Source: Bradyrhizobium sp. WSM471 | Lineage (GTDB): Bacteria; Pseudomonadota; Alphaproteobacteria; Rhizobiales; Xanthobacteraceae | Length of the DNA: 64,000 bases | Assembly (NCBI RefSeq): GCF_000244915.1 | Contig: NZ_CM001442.1 | Coordinates: 5,828,001 to 5,892,000, forward strand | Reading direction: 5' to 3' | In this document: positions 19,957 to 55,926 of the stretch, piece by piece | How positions within the stretch are numbered: the first letter of the stretch is position 1 | How the letters are laid out: each line of letters begins with the position of its first letter | The notes under the pieces: generated by a model | The model's database searches: none | What the model was told of the DNA's origin: nothing | The model's input: only the letters and a program-made list of their open reading frames with translations | Position numbers and translations under genes: made by a program

Positions 19957-20075
19957 CCCAGCCTTCCCATCCGTCACCACCGGCTGTTTTGATTTTCGCC
20001 GGTTGGTCGAAACGAGTGTAATCGGCAGCGATGACTGCGCCAGCCACAAAAGGTCGGGCCGTATCCGCACCAATC

Positions 20076-21612: not shown

Positions 21613-22233
21613 ATGCGCATTTTGATCGTCGACGATCATCCCATCGTCGCCTCCGGCTGCCGTGCCGTGCTGGCCGACGAGGGCGAGATCGAGATTTTGG
21701 AGGCCGCCGACGCCGAAGACGGCGAGTGCGTCTTCATCGTCGAGCGCCCCGACCTCTCGATCATCGACATCAACCTGCCGACCGTGTCCGGCTTCGAGCT
21801 CGCGCGCCGCATCCTCGAGCGCGCGCCCGAGGCTCGAATCATCATGTTCAGCATGAACGACGACCCTGCTTTCGCCGCGCGTGCGATCGAGTGCGGCGCC
21901 AAGGGCTACGTCTCCAAGACCGGCGACCCCGATGATCTCGTCGAGGCAATCCGCACCGTCGGCAGCGGCGGCACCTATCTGCCGAGCGCAATCGCGCGCA
22001 GCATCGCCTTTGCCGGACCCGCTCTGGCGCAAAGCCCGCTGTCGAAGCTGAACGCGCGCGAGATGGAGATTTTGCGGCTGCTCAGCGCCGGAAAGAGCCT
22101 ATCCGAGATCGCCTGGCTGGTGCAGTCGTCTTACAAGACTGTCGCCAACACCTCGTCCATCATGCGCCAGAAGCTCGGGGTGAAAACCTCTGTCGAGCTG
22201 GTGCGGCTGGCGATCGACAGTGGCGTGGCCTGA
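21613..22233 (+). CDS. LuxR/NarL-family response regulator
   Basis: 206 residues. Receiver domain with acidic pocket (VDDHP), phosphoacceptor Asp52 in SIIDINLP and conserved Lys in GAKGYVSKTGD; C-terminal LuxR helix-turn-helix (LNAREMEILRLLSAGKSLSEIA ... YKTVANTSSIMRQKLGV). GAGGAAC precedes the ATG. Expected to be phosphorylated by the divergent kinase and to control genes of the PQQ/lanthanide island, including possibly the adjacent fghA, 69 bases downstream on the same strand. Confidence 0.88.
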   Translation: MRILIVDDHPIVASGCRAVLADEGEIEILEAADAEDGECVFIVERPDLSIIDINLPTVSGFELARRILERAPEARIIMFSMNDDPAFAARAIECGAKGYVSKTGDPDDLVEAIRTVGSGGTYLPSAIARSIAFAGPALAQSPLSKLNAREMEILRLLSAGKSLSEIAWLVQSSYKTVANTSSIMRQKLGVKTSVELVRLAIDSGVA

Positions 22234-29396: not shown

Positions 29397-30278
29397 TCAT
29401 GGCGTCTTCTTGGCCGTCTCCGCGCCGAGCGGCCGATCGCTCTCGTCCAGCAGCGGCACGCCAAAGTCGAGCAGGATCTTGTTGATCTCGCCCTGGTTCT
29501 CCTGGATCAGCTTGTTGAGCTGCCGCTTCCAGTTCTGGTCGGCGCCACGCACGCCCATGCCGATGCGATAGACCAGTTTGGGCCCGGTGGTTTCCTTCAC
29601 CAGCGGCGTGACATGAAGCGATCCCGCCTTCTTCGCGTAGAACCCTGCCATCGGTCCCCACAGCACGCCGGCATCGATCTTGCCGGCCGTAAGGTCATCG
29701 ATCATGGCCTGCGCCGAATTGTCGTAGCGCGTGTCGATCATTAGCGGATAGGGCTTTGCATCACCCATCAGTCCCGCGATGGCCATGTTGGTCGCAGGTG
29801 GCGTGCCGGCGACGATGCCGACATGCTTGCCCTTCAGCCTAGCATCCTCGAGCGTGTCGACTTCCTCCAGCCCGCTGCCCGCTTTCGCGACCAGCGCATA
29901 GCTCGTGCGGTAATAGGGATTGGTGCCTTGCACGAGGTCATCGCCTTGGGGGAAGCCCATGATGACGTCGCAGCGATGCGAGCCGAGCGTCATGCGCACG
30001 AAGCCGGTGGCTTGCGGAAAAAAGACATAGTCGAGCTTCTTCTGGAGCTTGTCCGCAAACAGCTCGGCAAGCTTGTTCTCGAACCCCTCGCCCTTCTCAT
30101 TCGAGAACGGCAGATTGCGCGGGTCGGAACAGACGCGCAGCACCTTGGGATCGACCAGCTCGAAGGAGAGGTCACCCGTCTCGTTGGTCTGCGCGATGGC
30201 GACGTCGCCGAACGCACAAGACGCAACCAGGATACTTAGTGAAAGCAACCAGCGACGATGTCGTCCGGCCTCCGTCAT
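29397..30278 (-). CDS. xoxJ: Quinoprotein-associated substrate-binding protein (XoxJ/MoxJ-like), copy 1
   Basis: 293 residues from ATG 30278, which has TAGGAGGAAG upstream; longer readings are not credible. Signal peptide ending DVAIAQ, then a type II periplasmic-binding fold (LRVCSDPRNLPFSNEKGEGF, GSHRCDVIMGFPQGDDLV). Family TIGR03871 type. XoxJ is thought to help activate or mature XoxF, perhaps by binding the partly open dehydrogenase. A second copy lies at 41062. Divergent from the zinc hydrolase gene. Confidence 0.87.
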   Translation of the reverse strand: MTEAGRHRRWLLSLSILVASCAFGDVAIAQTNETGDLSFELVDPKVLRVCSDPRNLPFSNEKGEGFENKLAELFADKLQKKLDYVFFPQATGFVRMTLGSHRCDVIMGFPQGDDLVQGTNPYYRTSYALVAKAGSGLEEVDTLEDARLKGKHVGIVAGTPPATNMAIAGLMGDAKPYPLMIDTRYDNSAQAMIDDLTAGKIDAGVLWGPMAGFYAKKAGSLHVTPLVKETTGPKLVYRIGMGVRGADQNWKRQLNKLIQENQGEINKILLDFGVPLLDESDRPLGAETAKKTP

Positions 30279-30408
30279 CGCGCTTCCTCCTAGGCTTGTT
30301 TGAATGCTAGCCATGCAACGCATGACGCGCCATGTTTTGCCAGGCTGTGTGCTGGCTTTTCTTTGTTGCAGTGCAATGCGCGCAAACCCTTTGAACTGAG
30401 GCGGAAAA

Positions 30409-31335
30409 GTGTCTCGCATCGCTCTCGTGATCGCAGCCTTGTCCCTGCTGGTGACAGCGACGCTAGCATGCGCCGCAGCGGCCGAATTGCCTGTGAGCGA
30501 AGTCGCGCCGGGAATCTTCGTACACTCCGGGACCATCGCCCTGATGACCCGCGAGAACGAGGGCGACATCGCCAATGTCGGATTCATCGTGGGCGAGGAT
30601 GCTGTGGCGGTGATTGATACCGGCGGTAGCGTTCGCGAGGGCGAGGCGCTGCTGGCGGCGGTGCGGGCCCGCACCAGCAAGCCGATCCGCTACGTCATCA
30701 ATACCCACGGCCATCCCGACCATGTTTTCGGCAATGCGGCCTTCGCCATCGGGGACACCATCTTCGTCGGTCACAGCAGGCTGCCGCGGGCGCTCGCTGC
30801 GCGCGGGCCGTACTATCTCGACAATTTTAGGCGCATCATGGGCGACGAATTGATATCTCCCGTGAAGATCGTGCCGCCCACAATGCTCGTCACGGACACA
30901 ATGACGCTCGATCTCGGCGCGCGCCGCCTGACCTTGCGGGCCTGGCCGGCCGGGCACAGCGACAATGACCTGACCGTGTTCGACGAGACGACGAAGACGC
31001 TGTTCACTGGCGACCTCGTATTCCTCCGCCATATTCCGGTGATGGACGGCAGCATTCGCGGCTGGCTCGGCACTCTCGCGGAACTCGAGAGTATTCCGGC
31101 GCAGCGCGTCGTTCCCGGTCACGGGCCCGTGAGCGAATGGCCTGCGGCGCTGACCGATGAACGGCGCTATCTGACGGCACTGCTGGCGGACGTCCGGGCA
31201 TCGAACAAGAAGGGCGAGCCGATCCGAACCGCCGCTGACAAGGCCGCCGCCTCGGAACGGCCGCATTGGGAGCTGTTCGACGACTACAACGCCCGCAACG
31301 CAACCGCAGCATTTTCGGAAATTGAATGGGAGTAG
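30409..31335 (+). CDS. Quinoprotein relay system zinc metallohydrolase
   Basis: 308 residues with a GTG start. Signal peptide to about 24, then a metallo-beta-lactamase fold: zinc motif [13 protein letters not shown] near 99-111, [19 protein letters not shown] with its His, TGDLVFL, and [11 protein letters not shown]. It belongs to the SoxH-related proteins paired with SoxYZ-like carriers in PQQ systems (TIGR04558/04559 type). The substrate, presumably a thioester or persulfide on the carrier, is unknown. The next gene's earliest possible ATG overlaps this stop. Confidence 0.87.
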
Positions 31336-31385
31336 CGGACGCGCTACGATGCGCGAAACGTTGCTTCGTCCGCGGGACCAAGACC

Positions 31386-32204
31386 ATGACGGGATGCACG
31401 CGCCGACTGCCTCTGATCGCCCTGCTCCTCGGCATTGCATTCGCCGTGCCGGCGCAGGCGGAAGAAGCTTACGATCCCTGGCCAGGCCTGGTGCAGGACA
31501 TCTTCAGCAACCGTCCGATGAATGACGGCGGCAATGTCATTGGCATCGAGATGCCGTATCGCGCCGAGGACGCGGCCATCGTGCCAGTGACCCTGCGCAG
31601 CAAGCTCTCGCCTGGCGACGCCCGCCGCATCCGTTCGATCACGCTGGTGATCGATCGTAACCCCGCGCCGATGGCAGCGAAGTTCGAGCTCGGGCCGGAT
31701 GCCAACGTCACCGAAATCTCGACGCGCGTGCGCGTCAACAACTACACCGACGTCCATGCGGTGGCCGAGCTCAGCGATGGCCAGCTCTATGTCTCGAAAG
31801 TCTATGTAAAGGCTTCCGGCGGCTGCTCGGCACCGGCGGGCAAGAATGCCGAGGAAGCCCAGAACCGGCTCGGTCAGATGCGCTACCGCCAATTCGCGCG
31901 CGAGGAGGCCCCGGCGAGCCGCATGCGGGAGGCGCAGATCATGATCGGCCACCCCAACAATTCCGGCCTGCAGATGGATCAGGTCACGCAGCTTTACATT
32001 CCCGCCTTCTTCGTCAACCAGCTCAAGCTGACGCAGGACGACAGCCCCGTGCTCTCGATGGAAGGCGGCATCTCGATCTCGGAAGATCCCAATCTGCGCT
32101 TCACCTATGTGTCCAACGGCGCCAGGCGTTTTCGCGCGGAAGCCAAGGATACGGACGGACACGTGTTCCGCAACGAGTGGGATGTGGAGAAGCCGGGGAC
32201 GTGA
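31386..32204 (+). CDS. Quinoprotein dehydrogenase-associated SoxYZ-like carrier protein
   Basis: 272 residues from ATG 31386 (another ATG at 31326 overlaps the previous gene but only extends the region before the signal peptide). Signal peptide ending VPAQAEEA. The N-terminal half is SoxY-like, with the carrier cysteine in KASGGCSAPAG near residue 143, and the C-terminal half SoxZ-like (REAQIMIGHPNNSGLQMDQVT). Fused SoxYZ proteins of this type (TIGR04557) occur with PQQ dehydrogenases. Probably carries a sulfur group processed by the preceding hydrolase. Confidence 0.85.
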   Translation: MTGCTRRLPLIALLLGIAFAVPAQAEEAYDPWPGLVQDIFSNRPMNDGGNVIGIEMPYRAEDAAIVPVTLRSKLSPGDARRIRSITLVIDRNPAPMAAKFELGPDANVTEISTRVRVNNYTDVHAVAELSDGQLYVSKVYVKASGGCSAPAGKNAEEAQNRLGQMRYRQFAREEAPASRMREAQIMIGHPNNSGLQMDQVTQLYIPAFFVNQLKLTQDDSPVLSMEGGISISEDPNLRFTYVSNGARRFRAEAKDTDGHVFRNEWDVEKPGT

Positions 32205-37106: not shown

Positions 37107-37976
37107 CTAGAAATTGACGCCGAATATGACCCTTGCCTGGTGGCGCTCGAAATTGACGAGGTCAAGATTGCCGCCCGATCCGGCCGGACGGCCCCAAGCC
37201 TGCATGCTCCAGCTCATGGTCAGGCGCGAGCGCTCGGAAAGCTGGAAATAAGCGGTCGGGCCGACAAAGAGGGCCTGTCCTGCGAACTCGCCGAGGCCGA
37301 TGCCTTCGTACTCTCGGAAGTAGCGCACCTCGCCGCCGAGCAGCACATCGGGCCGCACGCGCACCAGGCCGGCGAAGGCCGCGCCGATGGTCGAACTCTT
37401 TTCGGACAGTCCCGCTATCTCGAAGCGCGCCCATTCGGGCTGATAGATCAGGTTGAGCGCCCCGATGGCGAAGTTCGGGATCAGCTCGCGATCGAAGGCG
37501 AGCGTGAAATCGGTACCGTACATCCGGCCTTTTGCGCCAGAGGTCTCGTCGATGCGGTCGCCATGGAGTTCGGCGGCGACAGTCAACCCGAATGGCGCGC
37601 GCTCGCGATCGAGCAGGCGATAACGCAGATCGAGCGAAGCGCCCTGAAAATTGAACTGGCGGCGATCGCCGATATCGGGGACGCCGGTGATGTCGTGCAG
37701 CGTGGCCGTGCCGCCGACCTCGATGCGGAAGTTCGGCAGCGGCACGATCTCGATCTCGACCTCCTGCGAGAGGGCGCGATAGGTCCCGCCGCCTTTGCCG
37801 AATCGTCCTGTCGTCTGGGTCTGGAATTCGCGCTCGCCGGGATTGCCGACATCGGTGCCGATCATGAAGCCGAAGATGTGCTCGGTATCAAAGCCCTCTT
37901 CGGCGCTGACGCATGCCGGCGCGAGCGCGACGGTGCAGGCGGCTATGGTCCAGAATGTAAGGGCTCTCGCGCGCAT
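37107..37976 (-). CDS. Predicted outer-membrane beta-barrel protein downstream of pqqA
   Basis: 289 residues from ATG 37976; a slightly longer start at 38012 is possible. Signal peptide ending CVSAEEG, then alternating strands (GGGTYRALSQEVEIEIVPLP, LSERSRLTMSWSMQAWG) and a C-terminal Phe after RVIFGVNF, the outer-membrane insertion signature. No family recognised with confidence. It is the third gene after lanM and pqqA on the same strand, so it may be co-expressed and might serve as a porin for PQQ, lanthanide chelates or alcohols. Confidence 0.65.
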   Translation of the reverse strand: MRARALTFWTIAACTVALAPACVSAEEGFDTEHIFGFMIGTDVGNPGEREFQTQTTGRFGKGGGTYRALSQEVEIEIVPLPNFRIEVGGTATLHDITGVPDIGDRRQFNFQGASLDLRYRLLDRERAPFGLTVAAELHGDRIDETSGAKGRMYGTDFTLAFDRELIPNFAIGALNLIYQPEWARFEIAGLSEKSSTIGAAFAGLVRVRPDVLLGGEVRYFREYEGIGLGEFAGQALFVGPTAYFQLSERSRLTMSWSMQAWGRPAGSGGNLDLVNFERHQARVIFGVNF

Positions 37977-38048
37977 CCCCGACACTACCACGGCTTCGAC
38001 GGTGGTTGCCATCGAAGCCGCGGCAGGTCGTCAGTCTTACTTGTGGTC

Positions 38049-38300: not shown

Positions 38301-38693
38301 TCACCGCAACAAGCGCAGCAGCGCGCGGCCGGCGCGCGAGTTCAGCTCCTTCGCATCCAGCGTTCCATCCTTATCGGGATTCGCCGCGTTGAAGCGCTGT
38401 TCCACCACCGAGAGATATTCGTCGAGCGTGAGAGTCCCGTCGCGATCGGGATCGGCGGCGGCGAGTTCTTTCGCCGTTAACCGTCCGCGCAACTCGCGGG
38501 CGTCGAGCGTGCCGTCGTGATCGGGATCGAGCTTGGTGAACAACGCAGCCGCCCCCTTCTTCACCTCGGCAAGATCGAGTGTGCCGTCATTGTCGGTATC
38601 GAACGTCTTGACCGCGTTGCCGGAGGCCGACCAGGCCGGACCAGACAGCAGTGCAATCGTGAACGCAAGTGCAACAGAGCGACGCGATATCAT
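38301..38693 (-). CDS. lanM: Lanmodulin-type lanthanide-binding protein with four EF hands
   Basis: 130 residues from ATG 38693, with AAGGAGG upstream. Signal peptide to about residue 22 (GPAWSASG). Four EF-hand loops: DTDNDGTLDLAE (32-43), DPDHDGTLDARE (56-67), DPDRDGTLTLDE (81-92) and NPDKDGTLDAKE (105-116). The 24/25/24 spacing, short linkers, proline at loop position 2 in three of four, Asn opening the fourth loop and the tail AGRALLRLLR all match lanmodulin of Methylorubrum. It should bind Ln3+ in the periplasm with very high affinity. Differences: Thr instead of Pro at position 2 of loop 1, and Thr instead of Asp at position 9 of loop 3 (Thr89). Divergent from a lanthanide-type dehydrogenase and followed by pqqA. 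Confidence 0.93.
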   Translation of the reverse strand: MISRRSVALAFTIALLSGPAWSASGNAVKTFDTDNDGTLDLAEVKKGAAALFTKLDPDHDGTLDARELRGRLTAKELAAADPDRDGTLTLDEYLSVVEQRFNAANPDKDGTLDAKELNSRAGRALLRLLR

Positions 38694-39033
38694 GAAGACC
38701 TCCTTGACCAAGACGCCGATTCGAACCGGATCGAAGCGACATAAGTCCACAAGCGAGCCTCGGTTCAAGCCCCGAATTGCAGCCTGCGCACCGCACAACT
38801 TGCTGAACCTGTCGGCCCGACCGCTGCCGTCGCGCACGCGCTCTGATCCGTGCCGCGGAATTTCTTCAGCGCCTGCGCACAAGTGAGCCTTGCTTGTCAG
38901 GTCTCCGTCAGGTGACGACATCCGGCGCCCACCATATCGGCGTCGCGATTGCGACTTTCGTATTGACGCGTTTTGCATTCGGGCGGAGTGTTGCTGTCGC
39001 AGCGTCAATAGGCGCGCATATTGGGAGGGACGG
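38694..39033. promoter_or_regulatory. Divergent promoter region between lanM and a PQQ dehydrogenase
   Basis: 340 bases without a gene, serving both directions. It includes a direct repeat GTCAGGT at 38896-38902 and 38907-38913, 11 bases apart (one helical turn), a possible regulator site. GGGAGGGA at 39024 is the dehydrogenase ribosome-binding site. No clear -35/-10 pair could be fixed by eye. Confidence 0.45.
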
Positions 39034-40698
39034 ATGAAACGCTTTGCGATGGCCGCGAGCCTCGTCATGCTTGCATCGACTTGTGCAAATGCACAAACTA
39101 GCGAGCAGCTGGTCAAGGGTGCGACCGATACATCGAACATTCTCAACTACGGGATGGGCTACAATCTCCAGCGTTTCTCGACGCTGAACCAGATCAACAA
39201 GGACAGCGTCAAGAACCTTGTCCCGGTTTGGAACTACTCTTTCAACGACGATCGCAGCGAGGAATCGCAACCACTGGTCTACCAGGGCGTGATCTACGTG
39301 ACATCGCACAACGCGACCATGGCGGTCGACGCCAAGACCGGCAAGCAGATCTGGAAATCCAAGGTCGAATATCCTGCCGAAACGCCGCGCATCGTCTGCT
39401 GCGGCATCATCAATCGCGGCGCAGCACTCTATGAGGGCAAGGTGTTCCGCACCACGCTCGACGCCAACGTGATCGCGCTCGACGCCAAGGACGGCAAGGA
39501 GCTGTGGCGGCAGAAGGCGGCCGACATCAAGGAAGGCTATTCGATGACGGTGGCGCCGCTCGTCGCCGACGGCGTCCTGATCACCGGCATCTCCGGCGCC
39601 GAGTTCGGCACCCGTGGCTTCATCGACGGCTGGGATCCGGCAACGGGCAAGCACCTGTGGCGGACCCATTCGATCCCCTCGCCCGACGAGCCCGGCGGCG
39701 ACACCTGGAAGGGCGATACCTGGAAGCTCGGCGGCGGCTCGACCTGGATTACGGGCTCCTATGATCCCGAGCTGAACACGGTCTATTGGGGTATCGGCAA
39801 TCCCGGCCCGTTCAATTCCGCAGTGCGCCCGGGCGACAACCTCTACACCTGCTCCGTGCTGGCGATGGATCCCAAGACCGGCAAGATCAAGTGGCACTAC
39901 CAGTTCTCGCCCAACAATCCGTTCGACTATGACAGCGTGGCCGAGATGGTCCTCGCCGACATGAACGTCGAGGGCAAGCCGACCAAGGTGTTGATGGACG
40001 CCAACCGCAACGGCTTCTTCTACGTGCTGGACCGCACCAACGGAAAGCTGCTCGCGGCCAATCCTTACGTGAAGGTCAACTGGGCGACCGGAATCGACAT
40101 GAAGACCGGACGTCCCATCGAGACCGACGTCGCGAAGGATGCGCGTGAGGGCAAGAAGGTGACCGTCTATCCGTCGATCCTCGGCGGCAAGAACTGGGAG
40201 CCGATGTCGTTCAATCCGCAGACCGGCCTCGCCTACGCCAACACGCTCGCCTTCGGCGGCAGGTACAAGACCGAACCCGCCACCTTCAAGCAGGGTGAAT
40301 GGTATCTCGGCATGGACCTCACCGATCTCTGGGAATGGGGTGACGGCCCGCGCGGTCATTTGAAGGCGATCGATCCCATGACCGGCAAGGCGAAGTGGGA
40401 AGCGCCCAGCGACATCCCGCGTTTCTCCGGCGTGCTGTCGACCGCGGGCGGCGTGGTGTTCTCGGGCGCGTTGACCGGCGAGTTCGAGGCCTTCGATGCC
40501 GACACCGGCAAGAAGCTCTGGCAGTTCCAGACCGGCTCGGGCATCGAGGGACAACCGGTGACCTGGCAGCAGGACGGCGTGCAGTACGTCGCGGTGACGA
40601 GCGGCTATGGCGGCGTCTACTCGCTGTTCTCGGGCGACGAACGGCTGGCAAAAGTGCCGCCCGGCGGCTCGCTTTGGGTTTTTGCGGTCAAGCAATAA
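39034..40698 (+). CDS. PQQ- and lanthanide-type alcohol dehydrogenase (ExaF/PedH- or XoxF-like)
   Basis: 554 residues from ATG 39034. Signal peptide ending CANAQT, then an eight-bladed quinoprotein propeller. Active-site residues: vicinal Cys122-Cys123 in RIVCCGIINRG, Glu190 in GISGAEFGTRG, Asn256 in GIGNPG, and the catalytic Asp298 with Asp300 in FDYDSVAE. The Asp two residues after the base is the diagnostic lanthanide ligand (calcium enzymes have Ala, Ser or Thr). It is shorter than XoxF (601) and its substrate loops differ, so ethanol or longer alcohols are likely besides methanol. Followed closely by cytochrome c and XoxJ genes and divergent from lanM. Confidence 0.92.
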   Translation: MKRFAMAASLVMLASTCANAQTSEQLVKGATDTSNILNYGMGYNLQRFSTLNQINKDSVKNLVPVWNYSFNDDRSEESQPLVYQGVIYVTSHNATMAVDAKTGKQIWKSKVEYPAETPRIVCCGIINRGAALYEGKVFRTTLDANVIALDAKDGKELWRQKAADIKEGYSMTVAPLVADGVLITGISGAEFGTRGFIDGWDPATGKHLWRTHSIPSPDEPGGDTWKGDTWKLGGGSTWITGSYDPELNTVYWGIGNPGPFNSAVRPGDNLYTCSVLAMDPKTGKIKWHYQFSPNNPFDYDSVAEMVLADMNVEGKPTKVLMDANRNGFFYVLDRTNGKLLAANPYVKVNWATGIDMKTGRPIETDVAKDAREGKKVTVYPSILGGKNWEPMSFNPQTGLAYANTLAFGGRYKTEPATFKQGEWYLGMDLTDLWEWGDGPRGHLKAIDPMTGKAKWEAPSDIPRFSGVLSTAGGVVFSGALTGEFEAFDADTGKKLWQFQTGSGIEGQPVTWQQDGVQYVAVTSGYGGVYSLFSGDERLAKVPPGGSLWVFAVKQ

Positions 40699-40708
40699 CC
40701 ACGGCGCG

Positions 40709-41065
40709 ATGCTGAGAAAGCTATCTCACAAGACGGTGGCGATCCTCGCCACCGTCGCGGTTCTGACGGTCGCGCTTGCGGCGACCGTACGTGCCGCGGA
40801 TGATTCAACCGGCAATCCCGTGCAGGCACAGGTCGACCACGGCAAGTCGACCTATGCCGAGAAATGCTCGCACTGCCACGGCCCCAACATGATGAACCCC
40901 GGCACCATCACGCCGGACCTGCGCGCCTTCCCCGACGACAAGACGCGCTTCGTCACCACCGTGAAGAACGGCAAGAACAACAGGATGCCGCCCTGGGCCG
41001 ACATTCTCAGCGACGAGGAGATCGGGAATCTCTGGGCCTTCATCTCGAGCCGGAGAAAGCCATGA
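40709..41065 (+). CDS. Periplasmic c-type cytochrome, electron acceptor of the upstream dehydrogenase
   Basis: 118 residues from ATG 40709, 10 bases after the dehydrogenase stop. Signal peptide ending TVRAADD, one haem-binding motif CSHCHGPNMMNPG, and a distal Met candidate in NNRMPPWADILSD. Class I cytochrome c of about 10 kDa when mature. It overlaps the next ATG (ATGA). Expected to pass electrons from reduced PQQ to the respiratory chain. Confidence 0.85.
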   Translation: MLRKLSHKTVAILATVAVLTVALAATVRAADDSTGNPVQAQVDHGKSTYAEKCSHCHGPNMMNPGTITPDLRAFPDDKTRFVTTVKNGKNNRMPPWADILSDEEIGNLWAFISSRRKP

Positions 41066-41991
41066 GGCGTTGGCTGGCCGCTTGGAGCATTGCCGCGATC
41101 CTCGCGGCGGCGGCCGTCACTGCACGCGCGGCCGACGAACCGCTCAAGATTTGTCTCGACGAGGACCGGCCACCGCTGTCGGTGCACCACAAGGGCATGC
41201 CGGGCTCGGGTTTCGACGTGTTGCTGGCGCAGGCGATCGCCGATCGGCTCGGACGACCGCTGACGATCCAGTGGTTCGAGAGCAAGCTGGATGAGGATTC
41301 GAGCCCACAGCTCGAGGCCAATGCGCTGCTGTCCGACGGGCGCTGCTCGCTCGTCGGCGGCTACGCGCTGACGACGGACTCCCTCGTCAAGCCCGGCATG
41401 AAAACGGCGCGCCTGCCGGATTTTGCCGGCGCCACGCGCGACGACCGGCGCCGCCGCGTCGCGCTCGGCGTGCTCGCGCCGAGCCAGCCCTATGTCTACT
41501 CGCCGATGACAGTCGTGCTCGGGCCGAAGGCGCAGGGTCGCAAGATCGGCGACATCGGCGACCTCGCCGGCCTGCGCCTCGTCATCGAGAGCGGCTCGCT
41601 TGGCGATGCGATCCTCATGACCTTCGACAAGGGGCGCCTGATCGATGACATCACGCATCTCGTCCCCGGCCGCGATGATCTCCCCGGTGCACTTGCCCGT
41701 GGTGACTATGACGCGACGCTGATCGATCTCGGCCGCCTAGACGCCCATCGCGCCGCGCACCCCGATACGGCGATCACCGCGTCCGGCTACTACTATCCGA
41801 TCGGGGCCAATCGCGGCTACGTCGGGCTGGCCAGCGATCCCGCGCTGATCGACGCCGTCAACAAGGCGCTGAGCGGGCTTGCTGCCGAGGACAAGATCGC
41901 GGAATTCGGCACGCAGGCGGGGCTGACCTATCTGCCGCCACGTGAGCCTGCGATCCTCGGTGACGTCTGGATGAAGATCATTCAGCGCTAG
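41062..41991 (+). CDS. XoxJ/MoxJ-like periplasmic binding protein, copy 2
   Basis: 309 residues; ATG overlaps the cytochrome stop, so dehydrogenase, cytochrome and this gene form one operon in the xoxF-xoxG-xoxJ pattern. Signal peptide ending ARAADEP, then LKICLDEDRPPLSVHHKGMP and GSGFDVLLAQAIADRLGRP of the type II binding fold, and LIESGSLG-like motifs. More divergent than the copy at 29397 and perhaps specific for the neighbouring enzyme. Confidence 0.8.
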   Translation: MRRWLAAWSIAAILAAAAVTARAADEPLKICLDEDRPPLSVHHKGMPGSGFDVLLAQAIADRLGRPLTIQWFESKLDEDSSPQLEANALLSDGRCSLVGGYALTTDSLVKPGMKTARLPDFAGATRDDRRRRVALGVLAPSQPYVYSPMTVVLGPKAQGRKIGDIGDLAGLRLVIESGSLGDAILMTFDKGRLIDDITHLVPGRDDLPGALARGDYDATLIDLGRLDAHRAAHPDTAITASGYYYPIGANRGYVGLASDPALIDAVNKALSGLAAEDKIAEFGTQAGLTYLPPREPAILGDVWMKIIQR

Positions 41992-43712: not shown

Positions 43713-44681
43713 CTAATGCTCGTCCGCGGCAACGGCGCCCTGTTGCGCCTTGTGGATCGAGGACGGCACCACGCCGAAATATTTCCGGAACACCCGGCTG
43801 AAATGCGATGAGCTGGAGAAACCCCAGGAGAACGCGACGTCGGTGATGGTCTTGCCGGCGTGGGCCTCGAGCTCCTGGCGGCAATTCTGAAGACGCGCCT
43901 GCCAGATGTAGTCGCTCACCGTGGTGCCGCGCTCCGAGAACAGCATGTGCAGATAACGCTTCGAGCAGCCGAGCTCGCCGGAAATCTGGTCGATGCACAG
44001 ATCCGGATCGCGCAAATGCTCGCGGATGAAGAACTGCGCGCGCACATAGGTCGCTTCGGGCCCGACGCGATCGAGCATCGTGTCGGCCTCGCGCAGCGGC
44101 AGCAGCAAGAGGTCGATCAGCGAATCGGCGACGCCGACCGCACTGTTTGCCGACAGCTTGGCCGCCTCGTCGAACGTCGCATGCACGAAATCATGGGCGA
44201 TCCGCCCCGTCCCCGTCCGTGAGGTCAATTTGCAGGCGGGCATCCGCTGCGACGGGAATCCGCGGTCGCGCAGCAGCGCCTTCGGCACGATCACCACGTC
44301 GTGGCGCGTGAAAGCGGGGCTGATGATCGAATGCGGACAGGAGACGTCATAGGCGATGATGTCGCCCGGATTCAGCTCGATGTGGCGACCTTCCTGCTCG
44401 AAATAGGACACACCGTAAGTCTGGAAGTGGATCTTGATATACGGGTGTTCATTGGCCTTGGCGCGCGCCAGCGTGTGCGCGATGCGATGCTGGCTGACCT
44501 CGATCTGGCAAAGCTTCAGGCGCGAGACGCTGGTGTAGTCGATGCGGCCTTCGAGCGAAGACGCTTCCAGCGGATCGACGTCGAAATGTCCACACAGGCT
44601 GGTCAGCCCGTCGATCCAGCTTTGGATCTGACGTTTCGGCGTCATGCCCGTCGTCGAGAGCGTGTGAATTGTGTCGGACAT
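43713..44681 (-). CDS. AraC-family transcriptional regulator, divergent from xoxF
   Basis: 322 residues from ATG 44681 (GTG 44693 also possible). N-terminal AraC-binding-like domain (about 1-200; HTLARAKANEHPYIKIHFQT, GDIIAYDVSCPHSIISPAF) and a C-terminal double helix-turn-helix (ICIDQISGELGCSKRYLHMLF-like region, FSWGFSSSSHFSRVFRKYFG near the end). Divergent from xoxF with about 500 bases between, so it is a good candidate regulator of the xoxF operon. The effector could be an alcohol, aldehyde or aromatic methoxy compound; that is inference. Confidence 0.87.
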   Translation of the reverse strand: MSDTIHTLSTTGMTPKRQIQSWIDGLTSLCGHFDVDPLEASSLEGRIDYTSVSRLKLCQIEVSQHRIAHTLARAKANEHPYIKIHFQTYGVSYFEQEGRHIELNPGDIIAYDVSCPHSIISPAFTRHDVVIVPKALLRDRGFPSQRMPACKLTSRTGTGRIAHDFVHATFDEAAKLSANSAVGVADSLIDLLLLPLREADTMLDRVGPEATYVRAQFFIREHLRDPDLCIDQISGELGCSKRYLHMLFSERGTTVSDYIWQARLQNCRQELEAHAGKTITDVAFSWGFSSSSHFSRVFRKYFGVVPSSIHKAQQGAVAADEH

Positions 44682-45194
44682 TAATCCAGCCACTGGTTTG
44701 ATCCGGAGATTTGACGCGAATCGCGAGCCGCGCTGCCGGAGCCCTGAACCGTGATTGCGTGACGTTTACCTCGATTTTGAGCGATCTTCTAGAACGAGCG
44801 CCATCGTTCCATTGCCACCCTTGTAAGTTAATCCTCCGCCTTAGTTGCAGCGCCGTCAAGGGGAACCTGAGCGTTGATGGCGCTCCCAAAGCGCTGCGGA
44901 AGCAGCTGAATTCGCTACTGCAAAATCAAAAACTTCCTACCCGTGCGCTGTCAAGCAAACCAGCTTCTCTCTTGGGCAAGTTTCCCGATAGCGAAGTCGT
45001 TAGGGATTGTATCAGGAACAACAAGAACGGGCCGCTCCGCACGTGGACCCGTGGCTCTCATCAGGAGGAGGAAACACCACAGCATCGTTTCTGGTCCCAA
45101 TCGTGACCGCCCTGCACGAGCAGACGCCGGACGAAAAGCCCGGCGATTAAGCAATGCTTCGGAAACAATAAACGAGACCAATGGAGGAATGACT
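44682..45194. promoter_or_regulatory. Long divergent regulatory region upstream of xoxF
   Basis: About 510 bases with no convincing gene. An orphan strong Shine-Dalgarno-like run AGGAGGAGGAAA (45063-45074) has no start codon behind it, and a 16-codon GTG frame (45103-45150) follows; a leader peptide or processed leader RNA is possible. One TTCCCGA heptamer occurs at 44982, like those before the TonB receptor gene, but a single copy could be chance. Confidence 0.4.
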
Positions 45195-47000
45195 ATGCGC
45201 AAGGTACTACTCGCGGCCTATCTTGGCTCCGCGGCGGCTCTCGCCGTCGGCAGCGCGTCGGCCAACGATGAAGTGCTCAAGATGTCGCAGAACCCGAAAG
45301 ACTGGGTGATGCCGACGGGCGACTACGCCAACACCCGCTATTCCAAGCTGAACCAGATCAACGCACAAAACGTAGGCAAGCTCCAGGTCGCCTGGACCTT
45401 CTCGACCGGCGTGCTGCGCGGCCACGAAGGCGGCCCGCTGATCATCGGCAACATGATGTACGTCCACACGCCGTTCCCGAACAAGGTCTACGCTATTGAC
45501 CTTTCCAACGAGAACAAGATCGTCTGGAAGTACGAGCCGAAGCAGGATCCGAACGTCATCCCCGTGATGTGCTGCGACACGGTCAACCGCGGCTTGGCCT
45601 ATGGCGACGGCAAGATCTTCCTGCATCAGGCCGACACCACGCTCGTTGCGCTCGATGCCAAGAGCGGTCAGGTGGCATGGACCGCGAAGAACGGCGACGC
45701 CAGCAAGGGCGAGACCGGTACTTCGGCCCCCATGGTCGTCAAGGACAAGGTGCTGATCGGCATCTCCGGCGGCGAGTTCGGTGTTCAAGCCCATATGACC
45801 GCCTACGACATCAAGACGGGCAAGCTGGCTTGGCGCGGCTACTCCGAAGGGCCGGATGACCAAATCCTGGTCGACGCAGAGAAGACCACCGCGCTCGGCA
45901 AGCCTATCGGCAAGGACTCCAGCCTCAAGACCTGGCAAGGCGATCAGTGGAAGATCGGCGGCGGCGCCACCTGGGGCTGGATCTCGTACGATCCCGAGCT
46001 GAACCTCGTCTACTACGGGTCGGGCAATCCCTCGACCTGGAATCCGAAGCAGCGTCCCGGCGACAACAAATGGTCGATGACGATCTGGGCTCGCAACCCT
46101 GACACCGGCAAGGCCAAGTGGGTCTATCAGATGACGCCCCACGACGAGTGGGACTATGACGGCGTCAACGAGATGATCCTCTCGGACCAGTCGATCAACG
46201 GCCAGCCGCGCAAGCTGCTGACGCATTTCGATCGTAACGGCCTCGGCTATACGCTCGATCGCGCCACCGGCGAGCTTCTGGTCGCCGAAAAGTACGATCC
46301 GAAGGTGAACTGGACCTCCGGCGTCGACATGGACAAGAACTCGCCGACCTACGGCCGCCCGAAGGTGCTCGACTCAGCTTCGACCGACAAGGCGGGCGAG
46401 GACCACAACGTGAAGGGCATCTGCCCGGCCGCGCTCGGCACCAAGGACGAGCAGCCGGCAGCCTACTCGCCGGACACGCAGCTGTTCTACGTTCCGACCA
46501 ACCACGTCTGCATGGACTACGAGCCGTTCAAGGTGAGCTACACCGCGGGCCAGCCCTATGTGGGTGCGACGCTCTCGATGTATCCGCCGCAGGGTGAAAC
46601 CCACATGGGTAACTTCATCGCCTGGGACGGCAAGACCGGCAAGATCGTCTGGTCGAACAAGGAGCAGTTCTCGGTCTGGTCGGGCGCGCTCGCAACCGCG
46701 GGCAACGTGGTGTTCTACGGAACGCTCGAAGGCTACCTGAAGGCAGTCGACGCCAAGACCGGCAAGGAGCTCTACAAGTTCAAGACTCCCTCCGGCATCA
46801 TCGGCAACGTCACCACCTATGAGAACGGCGGCAAGCAGTATGTCGCAGTGCTCTCCGGCGTGGGCGGCTGGGCCGGCATCGGTCTGGCGGCAGGCCTGAC
46901 CGATCCGACCGCCGGCCTCGGCGCAGTCGGTGGCTACGCGGCGCTCAGCAACTACACGGCACTCGGCGGTACGCTGACCGTGTTCTCGCTGCCCAACTAG
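45195..47000 (+). CDS. xoxF: Lanthanide-dependent methanol dehydrogenase XoxF
   Basis: 601 residues, the standard XoxF length; ATG 45195 is chosen over ATG 45189 because GGAGGA sits at the right distance. Signal peptide ending GSASAND. Vicinal Cys126-Cys127 (VMCCDTV), Glu194 (SGGEFG), Asn278 (GSGNPS), catalytic Asp320 and lanthanide-ligand Asp322 in [10 protein letters not shown]. The C-terminal [12 protein letters not shown] region is typical of XoxF5-type enzymes. It oxidises methanol (and formaldehyde) in the periplasm with PQQ and Ln3+ and passes electrons to XoxG. Followed by xoxG, frmA and gfa. A block of this composition is known to me from Bradyrhizobium japonicum in connection with C1 units from vanillate (recalled). 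Confidence 0.95.
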
Positions 47001-47045: not shown

Positions 47046-47079
47046 CTCGTCTCACCGAATGCCTTCCGAGGAAAATCTC

Positions 47080-47598
47080 TTGCGTAAAATCTGCTCTGCC
47101 ATTGCTGCGATGTTCTTGGTCGCGTCCGGGGGAATTGCCGTAGCGGACGGCTCAGGTGATCCGACCGCCGTCAAGCAGAACGAAACCGGCGAATGGTCCG
47201 ACAAGGAAGGCAACCCGACCTACAAGATCACTGACGGATCCGTCGACTGGTACACCTATTCCGGATACCGCCGCTATCACTCGGACTGCCATGTGTGTCA
47301 TGGCCCGGATGGCATGGGCTCGACCTACGCCCCGGCGCTGAAGGATTCGCTGAAGACGATGAGCTATGCCGATTTTCTCGGCGTCGTCGCCTCCGGCCGC
47401 AAGAACATCTCGACTGCCGCAGAGAACGTGATGCCGGCCTTCGGCGATAACCCGAACGTCGCCTGCTACATGGACGATCTCTACGTCTATCTGCGCGCCC
47501 GCTCCAACGAGGCCTGGGGCCGCACAAGACCTAGCAAGCACGAGGACAAGAACGACGCCTATACCAAGAACGAAGATTCGTGCATGGGCAAGAAGTGA
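47080..47598 (+). CDS. xoxG: Cytochrome c of the XoxF system (XoxG)
   Basis: 172 residues from a TTG at 47080 preceded by CGAGGAAAAT; an ATG at 47059 gives seven extra residues but no ribosome-binding site. Signal peptide ending GGIAVADG. Single haem motif [11 protein letters not shown] near residue 71, axial Met candidate in [11 protein letters not shown], and a charged C-terminal extension ([19 protein letters not shown]) with an added Cys. It is the natural electron acceptor of XoxF. Called cycB in rhizobial literature. Confidence 0.9.
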
Positions 47599-47659: not shown

Positions 47660-48769
47660 ATGAAAACACGTGCCGCAGTCGCTTTCGAAGCCAAGAAGCC
47701 GCTCGAGATCGTCGAAGTCGATCTGGAAGGACCAAAGGTCGGCGAAGTCCTGGTCGAGATCAAGGCGACGGGCATCTGCCATACCGACGCCTACACGCTC
47801 GACGGCTTCGACAGCGAAGGAATTTTCCCGTCGATCCTGGGCCATGAGGGCGCGGGCATCATCCGCGAGATCGGCCCTGGCGTGACCTCGGTGAAGCCGG
47901 GCGACCATGTCATCCCGCTCTACACGCCGGAATGCCGGCAATGCAAAAGCTGCCTTAGCCGGAAGACCAATCTCTGCACCGCGATCCGCGCGACCCAGGG
48001 CAAAGGCGTAATGCCCGACGGTACCAGCCGTTTCTCCTACAAGGGCAAGCCGATCTACCACTACATGGGCTGCTCGACCTTCTCGAACTTCACCGTGCTG
48101 CCGGAGATCGCGGTCGCCAAGATCCGCGAGGACGCGCCGTTCGACAAGAGCTGCTACATCGGCTGCGGCGTCACCACCGGCGTCGGCGCCGTCGTCAACA
48201 CCGCCAAGGTCGAGCCGGGCTCGAACGTGGTCGTGTTCGGCCTCGGCGGCATCGGCCTGAACGTGATCCAGGGCGCCAAGATGGCTGGCGCGGACAAGAT
48301 CATCGGCGTCGACATCAACGACTCCAAGGAGGAATGGGGACGCCGGTTCGGCATGACCGATTTCGTCAATCCCAAGAAGATCACCGGCGACATCGTCCCG
48401 CATCTCGTGACCCTGACGGACGGAGGCGCCGACTACACCTTCGACTGCACCGGCAACACCACAGTGATGCGCCAGGCGCTGGAAGCCTGCCATCGCGGCT
48501 GGGGCACCTCGATCATCATCGGCGTTGCCGAATCGGGCAAGGAGATCGCGACCCGCCCGTTCCAGCTCGTCACCGGGCGAAACTGGCGCGGCACCGCCTT
48601 CGGCGGCGCGCGGGGCCGCACCGACGTGCCGAAGATTGTCGACTGGTACATGAACGGAAAGATCCAGATCGACCCGATGATTACCCACACGCTCAAGCTC
48701 GAAGACATCAACAAAGGCTTCGACCTGATGCATGAGGGCAAATCGATCCGTTCAGTCGTCGTGTTCTAG
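47660..48769 (+). CDS. frmA: S-(hydroxymethyl)glutathione dehydrogenase (class III alcohol dehydrogenase)
   Basis: 369 residues, ATG after TTGAGGAG. Oxidises S-hydroxymethylglutathione to S-formylglutathione with NAD+. Catalytic zinc ligands in [12 protein letters not shown] and LGHEGAGI, structural zinc cysteines in [17 protein letters not shown], and Rossmann motif [14 protein letters not shown] near 195. The name flhA or adhI is also used in rhizobia and Paracoccus. It clears formaldehyde from XoxF or from demethylation, with gfa just downstream and fghA elsewhere in the window. Confidence 0.95.
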
Positions 48770-48802
48770 CTCGAAAAGCGTCACCCCAAGGAGGATCGAC
48801 CC

Positions 48803-49366
48803 ATGACTGTTGCACTCCATCCCTCGATCGATAACGGCATCAAACAGGGCAGCGGCAGCTTCGCCGGCGGCACGCTCGCATGCAAATGCAGCGACCATCA
48901 GGTCAAGGTCGCCGTCAAGGGCGACGTCGCGCATAACCACGCCTGTGGCTGCACCAAGTGCTGGAAGCCGCAGGGCGCGAATTTCTCCGTCGTCGCCGTG
49001 GTACCCCGCCAGAACGTCACCGTGCTCGAGAACGGCGACAAGCTCCAGATCGTCGATCCATCGGCGGTGATCCAGCGCCACGCCTGCAAGGCCTGCGGCA
49101 CGCACATGTACGGCCGCATCGAGAACAAGGGTCACCCGTTCTACGGCCTCGACTTCATCCACCCCGAACTGTTCCAGGAGCAGGGTTCGCAGGCGCCGCA
49201 ATTCGCCGCCTTCGTCTCGTCGGTGATCGAATCGGGCGTGAAGCCGGAGCAGATGGGCGGAATACGGGCTCGGTTCAAGGAGCTTGGGCTTGAACCCTAT
49301 GACTGCCTGTCGCCGGCGCTGATGGACGCGATCGCGACCCACGTGGCGAAGGCCAAAGCTGCCTGA
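48803..49366 (+). CDS. gfa: S-(hydroxymethyl)glutathione synthase (Gfa)
   Basis: 187 residues with CCAAGGAGGA upstream. Promotes condensation of formaldehyde and glutathione. The zinc-binding GFA fold shows cysteines in [21 protein letters not shown] and [12 protein letters not shown]. Lies 33 bases after frmA in the same transcript. The last codons, AKAKAA, run into a 16-17 base imperfect tandem repeat. Confidence 0.93.
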
Positions 49367-53419: not shown

Positions 53420-55159
53420 TTATTTCTTCAGCGCAAACACCCAGATCACGCCGCCCTGCGGCACGTTGGCTTCGATGCCGATATCGTTGGTCACGAGTGC
53501 ATCCTGGATGCGCTGCGCATCCACGCCCCATCCCGACTGGATCGCGATGTATTGCGTGCCGTCGATCTCATAGGACACCGGCATGCCCATGATGCCGGAG
53601 TTGGTCTTCTGCTCCCACAACAGCTCGCCGGACTTCGCGTTGAAGGCGCGGAAGTTGCGGTCGTTGGTGCCGCCCACGAAGACGAGATCGCCTGCGGTCG
53701 CCGTCACTGATCCGAACAGCTGCGACTTGGGGAAGTTGTGTTGCCACATCTTCTTGCCCGTCACGGGATCCCAGGCCTGGAGCTCGCCGAAATGATCGGC
53801 ACCCGGCTTCGTCTTCAGGCCGATGTCCTCCGGCTTGGTACCGAGCCAGAGCTCGCCGGGCTTGAGCGGGACCTTCTCGCCGGTGAACCCGCCGCAAAAA
53901 TTCTCGTTGGCGGGCACGTAGACGAGGCCGGTTTTCTGGCTGTAGGCCGCCGACGGCCAATCCTTGCCGCCCCACAGCGACGGACAGAACTCCACGCGCT
54001 TGCCGACCATCGGCTTGTGCGCGGGATCGACGATCGGCCTGCCACTCTCGGCGTCGATGCCCTTCCAGACGTCGGTGGAGACGAACGGCCAGCCGGCGAC
54101 GTAGTTGATCTTGGTCGGCGTGCGCTCGAGTATCCAGAAGATCGCATCGCGTCCCGGATGGACCAGGCTCTTGATGTTGCGACCGTCGCGTTGCAGGTCG
54201 ATCAACATCGGGGCTTCGACCTCGTCCCAATCCCAGGAATCGTTCTGGTGATACTGGTGATAGGTCTTGATCTTGCCGGTGTTCGGATCGAGCGCGAGCA
54301 CCGACGAGGTATAGAGATTGTCGCCCGGATGCATCTCGCCGGGCCACGGCGCGGCGTTGCCGACGCCCCAATAGATCGTCTTGGTGTCCTTGTCGTAATT
54401 GCCGGTCATCCAGGCCGAGCCGCCGCCGTTCTTCCAGTCCTCGCCCTGCCAGGTGTCGTGGCCGGGTTCGCCTTCGCCCGGAATCGTATAAGTCCGCCAC
54501 AGCTCCTTGCCGTCCTTGGCATCATAGGCGGCGACATAGCCGCGCACGCCGAACTCACCGCCGGAGCCGCCAACGATGACCTTGCCGTCGACGATCAACG
54601 GCATCAGGGTCATGTACTGGCCCTTCTTGTAGTCCTGCACCTTGGTGTCCCACACCACCTTGCCGGTCTTGGCGTCGAGCGCGACGACATGGTCGTCGGT
54701 GGTGGCGAGATAGAGCTTGTCCTCCCAGAGGCCGACGCCGCGGCTGGTCGGATGCAACTGGAACAGGTCGTCGGGAAGCTGCCGCTTGTAGCGCCAATAT
54801 TCGTCGCCGGTCTTGGCGTTCAGCGCGATCACCTGCCCCATCGGGGTCGCCACGAACATCACGCCGTTGTTGACGATCGGCGGCGCCTCGTGACCTTCGA
54901 CCACGCCGGTCGCGAAGGTCCAGACCGGCGTCAAGTTCTTCACATTCGAGGTGTTGATCTGGTCGAGCGGGCTGTAGCCCTGCCCGTCATAGGTCCGCCG
55001 GTAGAGCATCCAGTTGGCGGGCTCCGGGTTTTCCAACCGCTGCGCGGTGACCGGCGCGTAGTTCTCGACCGGGCCTGACATGGCGGCGGTCGAGGCAAGA
55101 CATGTGAAGGCGACGAAGCCGGACAGTAACCACTGCTTCCTGGTCATGGAAGTTTTCAT
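53420..55159 (-). CDS. PQQ-dependent dehydrogenase, lanthanide-type signature but without the vicinal cysteines
   Basis: 579 residues from ATG 55159 with AGGGGAAC upstream. Signal peptide near residues 1-27, then an eight-bladed quinoprotein fold (WTFATGVVEGHEAPPIVNNG, ELQAWDPVTGKKMWQHNF). Active-site Glu202 (GGSGGEFG), Asn268 (GVGNAA), Asp310 and Asp312 in SWDWDEVEAP: the Asp-x-Asp of lanthanide enzymes. Where other methanol/ethanol dehydrogenases have adjacent cysteines this one reads LFQLHPTSRG (132-141), so the PQQ-capping disulfide is missing. It follows a Rieske protein gene on the same strand (113 bases). Substrate unknown; related genes are annotated as exaA-like. Confidence 0.88.
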   Translation of the reverse strand: MKTSMTRKQWLLSGFVAFTCLASTAAMSGPVENYAPVTAQRLENPEPANWMLYRRTYDGQGYSPLDQINTSNVKNLTPVWTFATGVVEGHEAPPIVNNGVMFVATPMGQVIALNAKTGDEYWRYKRQLPDDLFQLHPTSRGVGLWEDKLYLATTDDHVVALDAKTGKVVWDTKVQDYKKGQYMTLMPLIVDGKVIVGGSGGEFGVRGYVAAYDAKDGKELWRTYTIPGEGEPGHDTWQGEDWKNGGGSAWMTGNYDKDTKTIYWGVGNAAPWPGEMHPGDNLYTSSVLALDPNTGKIKTYHQYHQNDSWDWDEVEAPMLIDLQRDGRNIKSLVHPGRDAIFWILERTPTKINYVAGWPFVSTDVWKGIDAESGRPIVDPAHKPMVGKRVEFCPSLWGGKDWPSAAYSQKTGLVYVPANENFCGGFTGEKVPLKPGELWLGTKPEDIGLKTKPGADHFGELQAWDPVTGKKMWQHNFPKSQLFGSVTATAGDLVFVGGTNDRNFRAFNAKSGELLWEQKTNSGIMGMPVSYEIDGTQYIAIQSGWGVDAQRIQDALVTNDIGIEANVPQGGVIWVFALKK

Positions 55160-55272
55160 GGCGTTCCCCTTTTTTCCGTTTGAATTCTTGTTTTGAATTC
55201 TTGTCGTTCGTCCCGTCGTCCGCCCATCGGCGGATGCGGCCTCTCGTGACGCGGGCAGAACCCGCACGCCCA

Positions 55273-55926
55273 TCATCCCGGCTGCGCGCCACCTACCTTT
55301 CCGACGAAGTTTCCGGCGACGCTGAGCGAGCCGTCAGCCAGCGCCAGCGGCAGCGCAGCGAGCCGCCGCGGCGCCGGCCCGAACACCACCTGCGCGCCCG
55401 CGCGAGGATCGTATTCGGAGTTGTGGCACATGCATTTGAGCACTTCCTTGTCGCCGACATCGCTCTTCACCCACGCTGTGACAGGACAGCCGGCATGCGA
55501 GCAGATTGCCGAATAGGCGAGGATGCCGTCGACAGCGCGCGCTTTTGTCTGCTCGTCGAGCTCGGCGGGGTCGAGCCGGATGATCAGAATCTCGTTGAGG
55601 CGCGAGGCGCTGCGCACGACCGACGTCTTCGGATCTTTCGGCCAGGCATGCACCGGCGGTCCGCCGGCCGACAGAGCGGCCGCGGTGACGGGCTGTCCCT
55701 CCTGATCGCCTTCTGAGAACACGAGCAGATCGCCCTTCTGAGGCCGCTCGTCGGAGCCGGGTGCATCCTCGCCCGCGTGGACTTGCGGGGAGCAGGCGAG
55801 GCACGCCGTGGTGGCCAGCGCACTCATCAACAGCGCCCGCCGGGTTTGCTCCGTGCAGGCGTCAGCTTCGGATTCCGCTGTGTTGTCGGAGGATGATGAG
55901 GATGTGTTGAACGATGCACGCGACAT
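55273..55926 (-). CDS. Rieske [2Fe-2S] protein with export signal
   Basis: 217 residues. N-terminus is Ser-rich with TRRALLMSALATTACLAC, a Tat- or lipoprotein-like export signal ending near residue 46. Rieske box 1 ICSHAGCPVTAW near 143 and box 2 CMCHNSEYDPRAG near 165 give the two Cys and two His ligands plus the disulfide cysteines. It resembles the small subunits of arsenite oxidase-type enzymes or free Rieske carriers. Located directly before the PQQ dehydrogenase, it probably replaces or supplements cytochrome c as electron acceptor. Confidence 0.85.
   Translation of the reverse strand: MSRASFNTSSSSSDNTAESEADACTEQTRRALLMSALATTACLACSPQVHAGEDAPGSDERPQKGDLLVFSEGDQEGQPVTAAALSAGGPPVHAWPKDPKTSVVRSASRLNEILIIRLDPAELDEQTKARAVDGILAYSAICSHAGCPVTAWVKSDVGDKEVLKCMCHNSEYDPRAGAQVVFGPAPRRLAALPLALADGSLSVAGNFVGKVGGAQPG

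Follow-up and report, generated by a model that had tools for sequence, protein, structure and literature searches.

A lanmodulin gene within a largely conserved PQQ/methanol island of Bradyrhizobium sp. WSM471, with loop substitutions common among its relatives

Overview

The lanM gene of Bradyrhizobium sp. WSM471 encodes a lanmodulin (LanM) and lies within a largely conserved PQQ/methanol island, and the two substitutions in its EF loops are common among its relatives. Very probably, the product is a genuine LanM that would bind rare earths and buffer or pass metal between a LutH-like receptor and PQQ dehydrogenases. Lanmodulins find use in the recovery and separation of rare earths, and position 9 of the EF loop is among the sites believed to govern their selectivity.

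Our analysis covered a stretch of 64,000 nucleotides, hereafter the window, whose features are collected in Table 1. The initial annotation, made from the sequence alone, had correctly assigned 130 residues to positions 38301-38693; the coding strand is the minus strand.

Table 1. Features of the window, with positions numbered from its first letter
Feature	Position	Strand	Remarks
TonB-dependent receptor, LutH-like candidate	17467..20073	-	18 kb from lanM
Sensor histidine kinase-like protein	20110..21468	-	Models matched below cut-offs
Response regulator-like protein	21613..22233	+	Models matched below cut-offs
MoxJ-2, quinoprotein-associated (-); quinoprotein relay metallohydrolase 2 and SoxYZ-like carrier (+)	29397..32204	-/+	
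301-aa protein, outer-membrane-barrel-like by inspection	37107..38012	-	No NCBIfam or Pfam match
pqqA, 26 aa	38049..38129	-	171 nt downstream of lanM, same strand
lanM, lanmodulin	38301..38693	-	130 aa; start at 38693, stop codon ends at 38301
EF loop 4, NPDKDGTLDAKE, residues 105-116	38346..38381	-	Asn at position 1, Pro at position 2
EF loop 3, DPDRDGTLTLDE, residues 81-92	38418..38453	-	Pro at position 2; Thr89 at position 9, codon 38427-38429
EF loop 2, DPDHDGTLDARE, residues 56-67	38493..38528	-	Pro at position 2
EF loop 1, DTDNDGTLDLAE, residues 32-43	38565..38600	-	Thr at position 2
Putative signal peptide, about residues 1-22	38628..38693	-	By sequence inspection; low-confidence N-terminus in the AlphaFold model
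PQQ alcohol dehydrogenase, 554 aa, D298-Y-D300	39034..40698	+	Divergent from lanM, 340 nt upstream
c-type cytochrome	40709..41065	+	Model match
ORF with family 3 solute-binding domain, XoxJ-like by position	40864..41991	+	True start further in
AraC-type regulator	43713..44693	-	Best model FeaR, 179.5 bits, below the cut-off of 199
xoxF, D-Y-D motif	45189..47000	+	Best solved match XoxF 6oc5, 1085 bits
Methanol-metabolism c-type cytochrome	47059..47598	+	TIGR03874
S-(hydroxymethyl)glutathione dehydrogenase and S-(hydroxymethyl)glutathione synthase (formaldehyde pathway)	47660..49366	+	
Third PQQ alcohol dehydrogenase of the window	53420..55276	-	DWD at the metal site; no adjacent-cysteine pair

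Assignment to the lanmodulin family

The identification of the protein as a lanmodulin, proposed in the initial annotation, is strongly supported by each sequence and fold test that we ran. The NCBIfam LanM equivalog NF053806 gave a score of 176.7 bits, above its cut-off of 135, and its E-value of 2.1e-52 indicates that the four-loop similarity does not arise by chance. The four best PDB sequences were those of Mex-LanM (8fns, 6mi5), Hans-LanM (8dq2), and a lanthanum-bound protein of Ancylobacter (9pi2), with other EF-hand chains trailing at E 4e-5 or weaker; chance similarity was rejected on these matches together with the model score.

The AlphaFold model, built on 40 aligned sequences, has a mean pLDDT of 82, with block means above 90 for residues 41-130, 84 for residues 31-40, and about 50 before residue 31. 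When compared by Foldseek, this predicted model matched Mex-LanM 8fns with a TM-score of 0.95 of the target, an rmsd of 0.8 A, and 57% identity in 103 aligned columns, and Hans-LanM 8dq2 with a TM-score of 0.88. The four matches at E 0.001 or better were all LanM, and calmodulin-type matches reached a TM-score of 0.38 or less among the 50 listed.

The loop plan was also described accurately at the outset: four EF loops start at residues 32, 56, 81, and 105 (spacing 24/25/24), with an Asn-led loop 4 and Pro at position 2 of loops 2-4. The gaps between them amount to 12, 13, and 12 residues, and a separation of 12-13 residues between adjacent EF loops is a published LanM criterion (PMC10232371). 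Four EF loops, fewer than 200 residues, gaps of this size, and at least one loop with Pro at position 2 are all features of LanM membership found in this protein, whereas calmodulin-like sensors combine about 25 residues between EF hands with a calmodulin fold. A signal-like N-terminus was recognized by inspection of the sequence alone. Searching the single-contig 7.78-Mb genome with the LanM protein returned one match, itself.

Comparison with the characterized proteins places Mex-LanM, from Methylorubrum extorquens AM1 (8fns/6mi5), and Hans-LanM among the closest solved sequences. Mex-LanM shares the four loops, the Pro at position 2 of loops 2-4, and the Asn-led loop 4, but where it has Pro at loop-1 position 2 and Asp at loop-3 position 9, the WSM471 protein has Thr in both places. 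Hans-LanM, from Hansschlegelia quercus (8dq2/8fnr), likewise has the LanM fold and four loops; it differs in loops 1-3, where position 1 is Asn and position 9 is a Glu that coordinates the metal itself.

Loop substitutions across relatives

Both substitutions, the Thr at position 2 of loop 1 and Thr89 at position 9 of loop 3, were correctly read in the initial annotation. Its view of them as marks of a special variant did not stand, since they are, judged by sequence, the norm in Bradyrhizobium rather than peculiarities of the strain and have precedents in Methylobacterium aquaticum 22A and in Methylocystis-related LanMs.

Our survey of 117 Bradyrhizobium genomes yielded 87 above-cut-off copies, excluding the window's own, of which one with a broken frame was dropped. 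Among the remaining 86, position 9 of loop 3 is Thr in 81, Ser in 4, Met in 1, and Asp in none, versus Asp in 86 of 86 at position 9 of loops 1, 2, and 4. A second set, more biased than this survey, consisted of the query and 120 listed of 4460 proteins, chosen by closeness to the query, and 119 of these 121 could be read in register: loop-3 position 9 was Thr in 108 and Ser in 11, and loop-1 position 2 was Thr in 95 and Pro in 15. Over 80 named loci, the best 80 of at least 183 relatives from the genome collection, the loop-3 Thr is encoded by ACG (71), ACC (5), ACT (2), and ACA (1), the last locus having Ser.

For a Methylocystis LanM query, 117 of 120 listed proteins (out of 2400) were readable; those with a species name were all Methylocystis, and most carry no species name. 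Loop-3 position 9 in this set was Ser in 47, Thr in 41, Asp in 26, Ala in 2, and Gly in 1, giving Thr or Ser in 88 of 117, and loop-1 position 2 was Thr in 108 of 117. These proteins resemble the WSM471 LanM in both respects, but their loop-2 position 2 is mostly Lys (70) or Thr (35), with Pro in 3. A further precedent, for the loop-1 Thr, is the LanM of M. aquaticum 22A, which was studied at the bench and changes shape with La3+ (PMC9260416); unlike the WSM471 protein, it has Lys at loop-2 position 2, and its gene neighbors purine biosynthesis and hemolysin genes. The idea that Thr89 is peculiar to WSM471 was rejected on the 86-copy survey and the Methylocystis-related set.

The more general statement that Asp is the loop-3 position-9 residue of known lanmodulins was partly right: it describes Mex-LanM, but Hans-LanM carries Glu, and most Methylocystis-related proteins have other residues. 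Asp occupies this position in the rows closest to Mex-LanM and Glu in the Hans group. A midpoint-rooted tree of 139 rows and 104 columns, in which many forks are open, counts nine changes for Thr and one for Glu, and in it the Glu-type (Hans) rows form their own branch with a support of 100/100.

Position 9 and metal binding

The structures of the characterized proteins suggest what Thr89 might do. In Nd-bound Mex-LanM, each site holds two solvent ligands and a hydrogen bond to the Asp at position 9, a residue that meets metal-bound water and not the metal, and so belongs to the second sphere (PMC10232371). In loops 1-3 of Hans-LanM, the Glu at position 9 ligates the metal directly and shifts from bidentate with La to monodentate with Dy; the same source describes loops 2 and 3 as a pair and loop 4 as a poor site (PMC10232371).

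By analogy with Mex-LanM, Thr89 would remove a second-sphere carboxylate and no first-shell ligand. Loop 3 of the WSM471 protein retains the first-shell residues D1, D3, D5, the carbonyl at 7, and E12, and this site is expected to bind lanthanides still, with altered strength. Because position 9 touches only metal-bound water in Mex-LanM, a tuning of rare-earth preference by Thr89 is plausible in the Bradyrhizobium proteins. The literature searched yielded no binding measurements on a LanM from Bradyrhizobium.

The PQQ/methanol island

The lanM gene sits in a PQQ/methanol island of about 40 kb, together with xoxF and the LutH-like TonB receptor. Its location between a PQQ alcohol dehydrogenase and pqqA was confirmed, and the proposed genomic link to PQQ/lanthanide-type dehydrogenases is strongly supported by the dehydrogenase model matches, the XoxF best solved match, and the conservation of the loci. 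The 554-aa dehydrogenase has the second Asp of the D-x-D metal motif, the criterion for lanthanide dependence, and its nearest solved relatives are the quinoprotein ethanol dehydrogenases 6zcv/6zcw, which we take to be Pseudomonas PedH. The product of the xoxF gene is closest to the lanthanide-dependent methanol dehydrogenase XoxF, above MxaF or ethanol dehydrogenases: after 6oc5, the PDB matches were XoxF 6dam with 916 bits and others with 688 or less. S-formylglutathione hydrolase and PQQ-linked ABC-system proteins are also encoded in the window. The third PQQ dehydrogenase adjoins a Rieske-like protein that falls below model cut-offs.

This arrangement recurs among the relatives. Counting neighbors at 80% identity or more, a threshold well separated from the approximately 37% at which the 554-aa dehydrogenase and XoxF cross-match, we found pqqA on the same strand after lanM and within 1.1 kb in 80 of 80 named loci, the divergent upstream dehydrogenase in 76, xoxF within 10 kb in 71, and the 301-aa barrel-like protein in 68; at one locus (L017), the contig ends near lanM. 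The gap between lanM and pqqA varies from 173 to 1061 nt over the 80 loci, so that their transcription as one unit is only a possibility. With the 4-kb flanks of the genus survey, pqqA follows lanM in 71 of 86 copies and the dehydrogenase is near in 66; neither lies within about 4 kb in 15, mostly the more divergent copies. In WSM471, the lanM-adjacent pqqA, an additional PQQ precursor gene, is without pqqB, and the sole above-cut-off pqqB of the genome adjoins the other pqqA.

The region resembles a Bradyrhizobium xoxF region described in PMC12628762, where xoxF, a second PQQ-dehydrogenase homolog, and glutathione-pathway genes occur together. That source reports two Bradyrhizobium strains that grow on methanol only with light lanthanides and two xoxF homologs in one region of USDA 110, and mentions lut homologs and a weaker lutH homolog; its main text does not mention LanM or lanmodulin. 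In AM1, lanM belongs to the lut cluster (PMC9260416, PMC7391723), in contrast to its place beside pqqA and a PQQ dehydrogenase in WSM471.

Candidate regulatory sequences: An inverted pair, TTGACG and CGTCAA, lies upstream of the dehydrogenase at window positions 38961-39010, with its halves 34 nt apart. Of 76 intergenic regions between lanM and the dehydrogenase, the window's among them, 70 have the pair at a spacing of 33-34 nt (34 nt in 69), and the 9-base form of the motif is exact in only 7 of the 76. The pair was not seen at that spacing in the 400 nt upstream of 14 other island genes; upstream of the AraC gene, both halves are present much wider apart. Across the whole window, the 9-mer with at most one mismatch occurs 19 times versus 10.4 expected. 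The promoter scan returned zero promoter-like sites and two terminator-like sites versus 1.0 expected. The pair beside the dehydrogenase may simply be promoter sequence.

A candidate lanthanide receptor

The evidence favors reading the TonB-dependent receptor as a candidate outer-membrane lanthanide receptor, LutH-like rather than concerned with PqqU-like PQQ uptake. This rests on its identity of 40-46% to receptors adjacent to lanM at 9 of 46 LanM or LanM-like loci outside the genus, for which flanks of about 1.5 kb were available in 20 and of up to 6 kb in the rest. Against the PqqU model it scored 80.8 bits, versus a cut-off of 1200; its best PDB matches, however, were YncD and a PQQ transporter, and PQQ uptake is the less favored possibility. 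None of the nine other TonB receptors of the genome matched it at 1e-10.

Of the 117 Bradyrhizobium genomes, 111 contain a receptor match at 1e-60; the identity is at least 64% in 97 of these and 47-51% in the other 14. The receptor is thus commoner than LanM (84 of 117), which indicates that the two are not obligately linked and, with 33 genomes lacking an above-cut-off LanM, that LanM is dispensable. A second LanM lies near the receptor in genomes G340, G815, G831, and G835 (L148/L196/L197 of G340, L280, L281, L282), and position 9 of loop 3 is Ser in these receptor-near copies. The G340 copy is placed between the receptor and the sensor kinase, a junction of 36 nt in the window. In G807 and G839, LanM itself is near the receptor, with Thr at that position.

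Distribution of lanmodulin

Above the cut-off, LanM was present in 84 of the 117 Bradyrhizobium genomes surveyed and absent from 33, and was detected in 29 of 397 genomes sampled from the order and 3 of 385 sampled from the class, all 3 in the same order. EF-hand matches below the cut-off were common at E 0.001 (284 of 397 genomes of the order and 159 of 385 of the class). A betaproteobacterial LanM appears in a published tree (PMC12482762), which shows that some members of the family occur outside the order. The best 80 of at least 183 relatives are labeled Bradyrhizobium (78), Bradyrhizobiaceae MAG (one), and "Frankia" (one). The last, L046, titled Frankia sp. RB7, has a Bradyrhizobium-type lanM with 89% identity, and its label is probably wrong. 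At locus L283 (G843), a break in the lanM reading frame separates loops 3 and 4.

The occurrence of LanM in Bradyrhizobium is already published. PMC10875860 describes, from one Bradyrhizobium genome, a LanM in which three EF hands carry proline and which is not co-localized with XoxF, unlike most loci here, where xoxF is near lanM, and the plasmid set of PMC12482762 counts 15 Bradyrhizobium LanMs. Neither the loop-3 Thr in Bradyrhizobium LanM nor the lanM-pqqA pairing was named in the open-access titles and abstract openings searched, a coverage that makes this weak evidence of absence.

Proposed role and alternative explanations

In the proposed role, LanM would be exported, as its N-terminal sequence suggests, and would bind light rare-earth ions in EF loops 1-3, with binding in loop 4 probably weak, as reported for Mex- and Hans-LanM. 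The metal-bound protein would fold as LanM does, and would buffer metal or hand it on from the LutH-like receptor to XoxF and the 554-aa enzyme, while the loop-3 site would act as in other LanMs, except that its position 9 is neutral and its affinity somewhat altered. Since M. aquaticum 22A grew on methanol without defect after deletion of lanM (PMC9260416), delivery remains a hypothesis even where it has been studied.

An ordinary calcium-binding EF-hand protein without lanthanide preference would explain why the listed relatives, where named, are called "calcium-binding protein," "EF-hand," or "hypothetical," and Thr at position 9 occurs in calmodulin loops too. We consider this reading very improbable and rejected it on the loop gaps of 12-13 residues, the above-cut-off LanM equivalog score, and a predicted fold within 0.8 A of LanM; the Pro at position 2 in three loops and the XoxF and LutH-like neighbors also speak against it.

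A genuine, rare-earth-binding LanM being the preferred reading, one special case of it, not exclusive of it, is that the loop-3 Thr constitutes a different selectivity filter kept by selection across the genus, for example by binding more weakly, by shifting the light/heavy preference, or by tolerating Ca2+. The total lack of Asp at this position in the 86 copies beside its invariance in the other three loops points in this direction, as do the retention of Thr through four codons over the 80 loci and the radius-dependent carboxylate shift of Hans-LanM, which occurs at position 9 (PMC10232371). However, the effect may be small if position 9 is second-sphere, as in Mex-LanM; the co-occurrence of Thr, Ser, and Asp in Methylocystis-related LanMs speaks for tolerance; and the predominance of ACG means that shared ancestry accounts for much of the pattern. 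Such a filter is possible, although we regard it as doubtful. Still more speculative, and somewhat less likely, is the proposal that the Bradyrhizobium LanMs form a natural class whose loop 3 lacks the second-sphere carboxylate and whose different affinity or light/heavy preference is matched to the co-travelling PQQ dehydrogenase and extra pqqA.

Implications

In Bradyrhizobium, lanM travels with an extra pqqA and a lanthanide-type dehydrogenase, usually joined by xoxF. A natural Thr at position 9 of one loop, near-universal in this genus of nitrogen-fixing soil bacteria, provides a ready set of homologs for testing the site.
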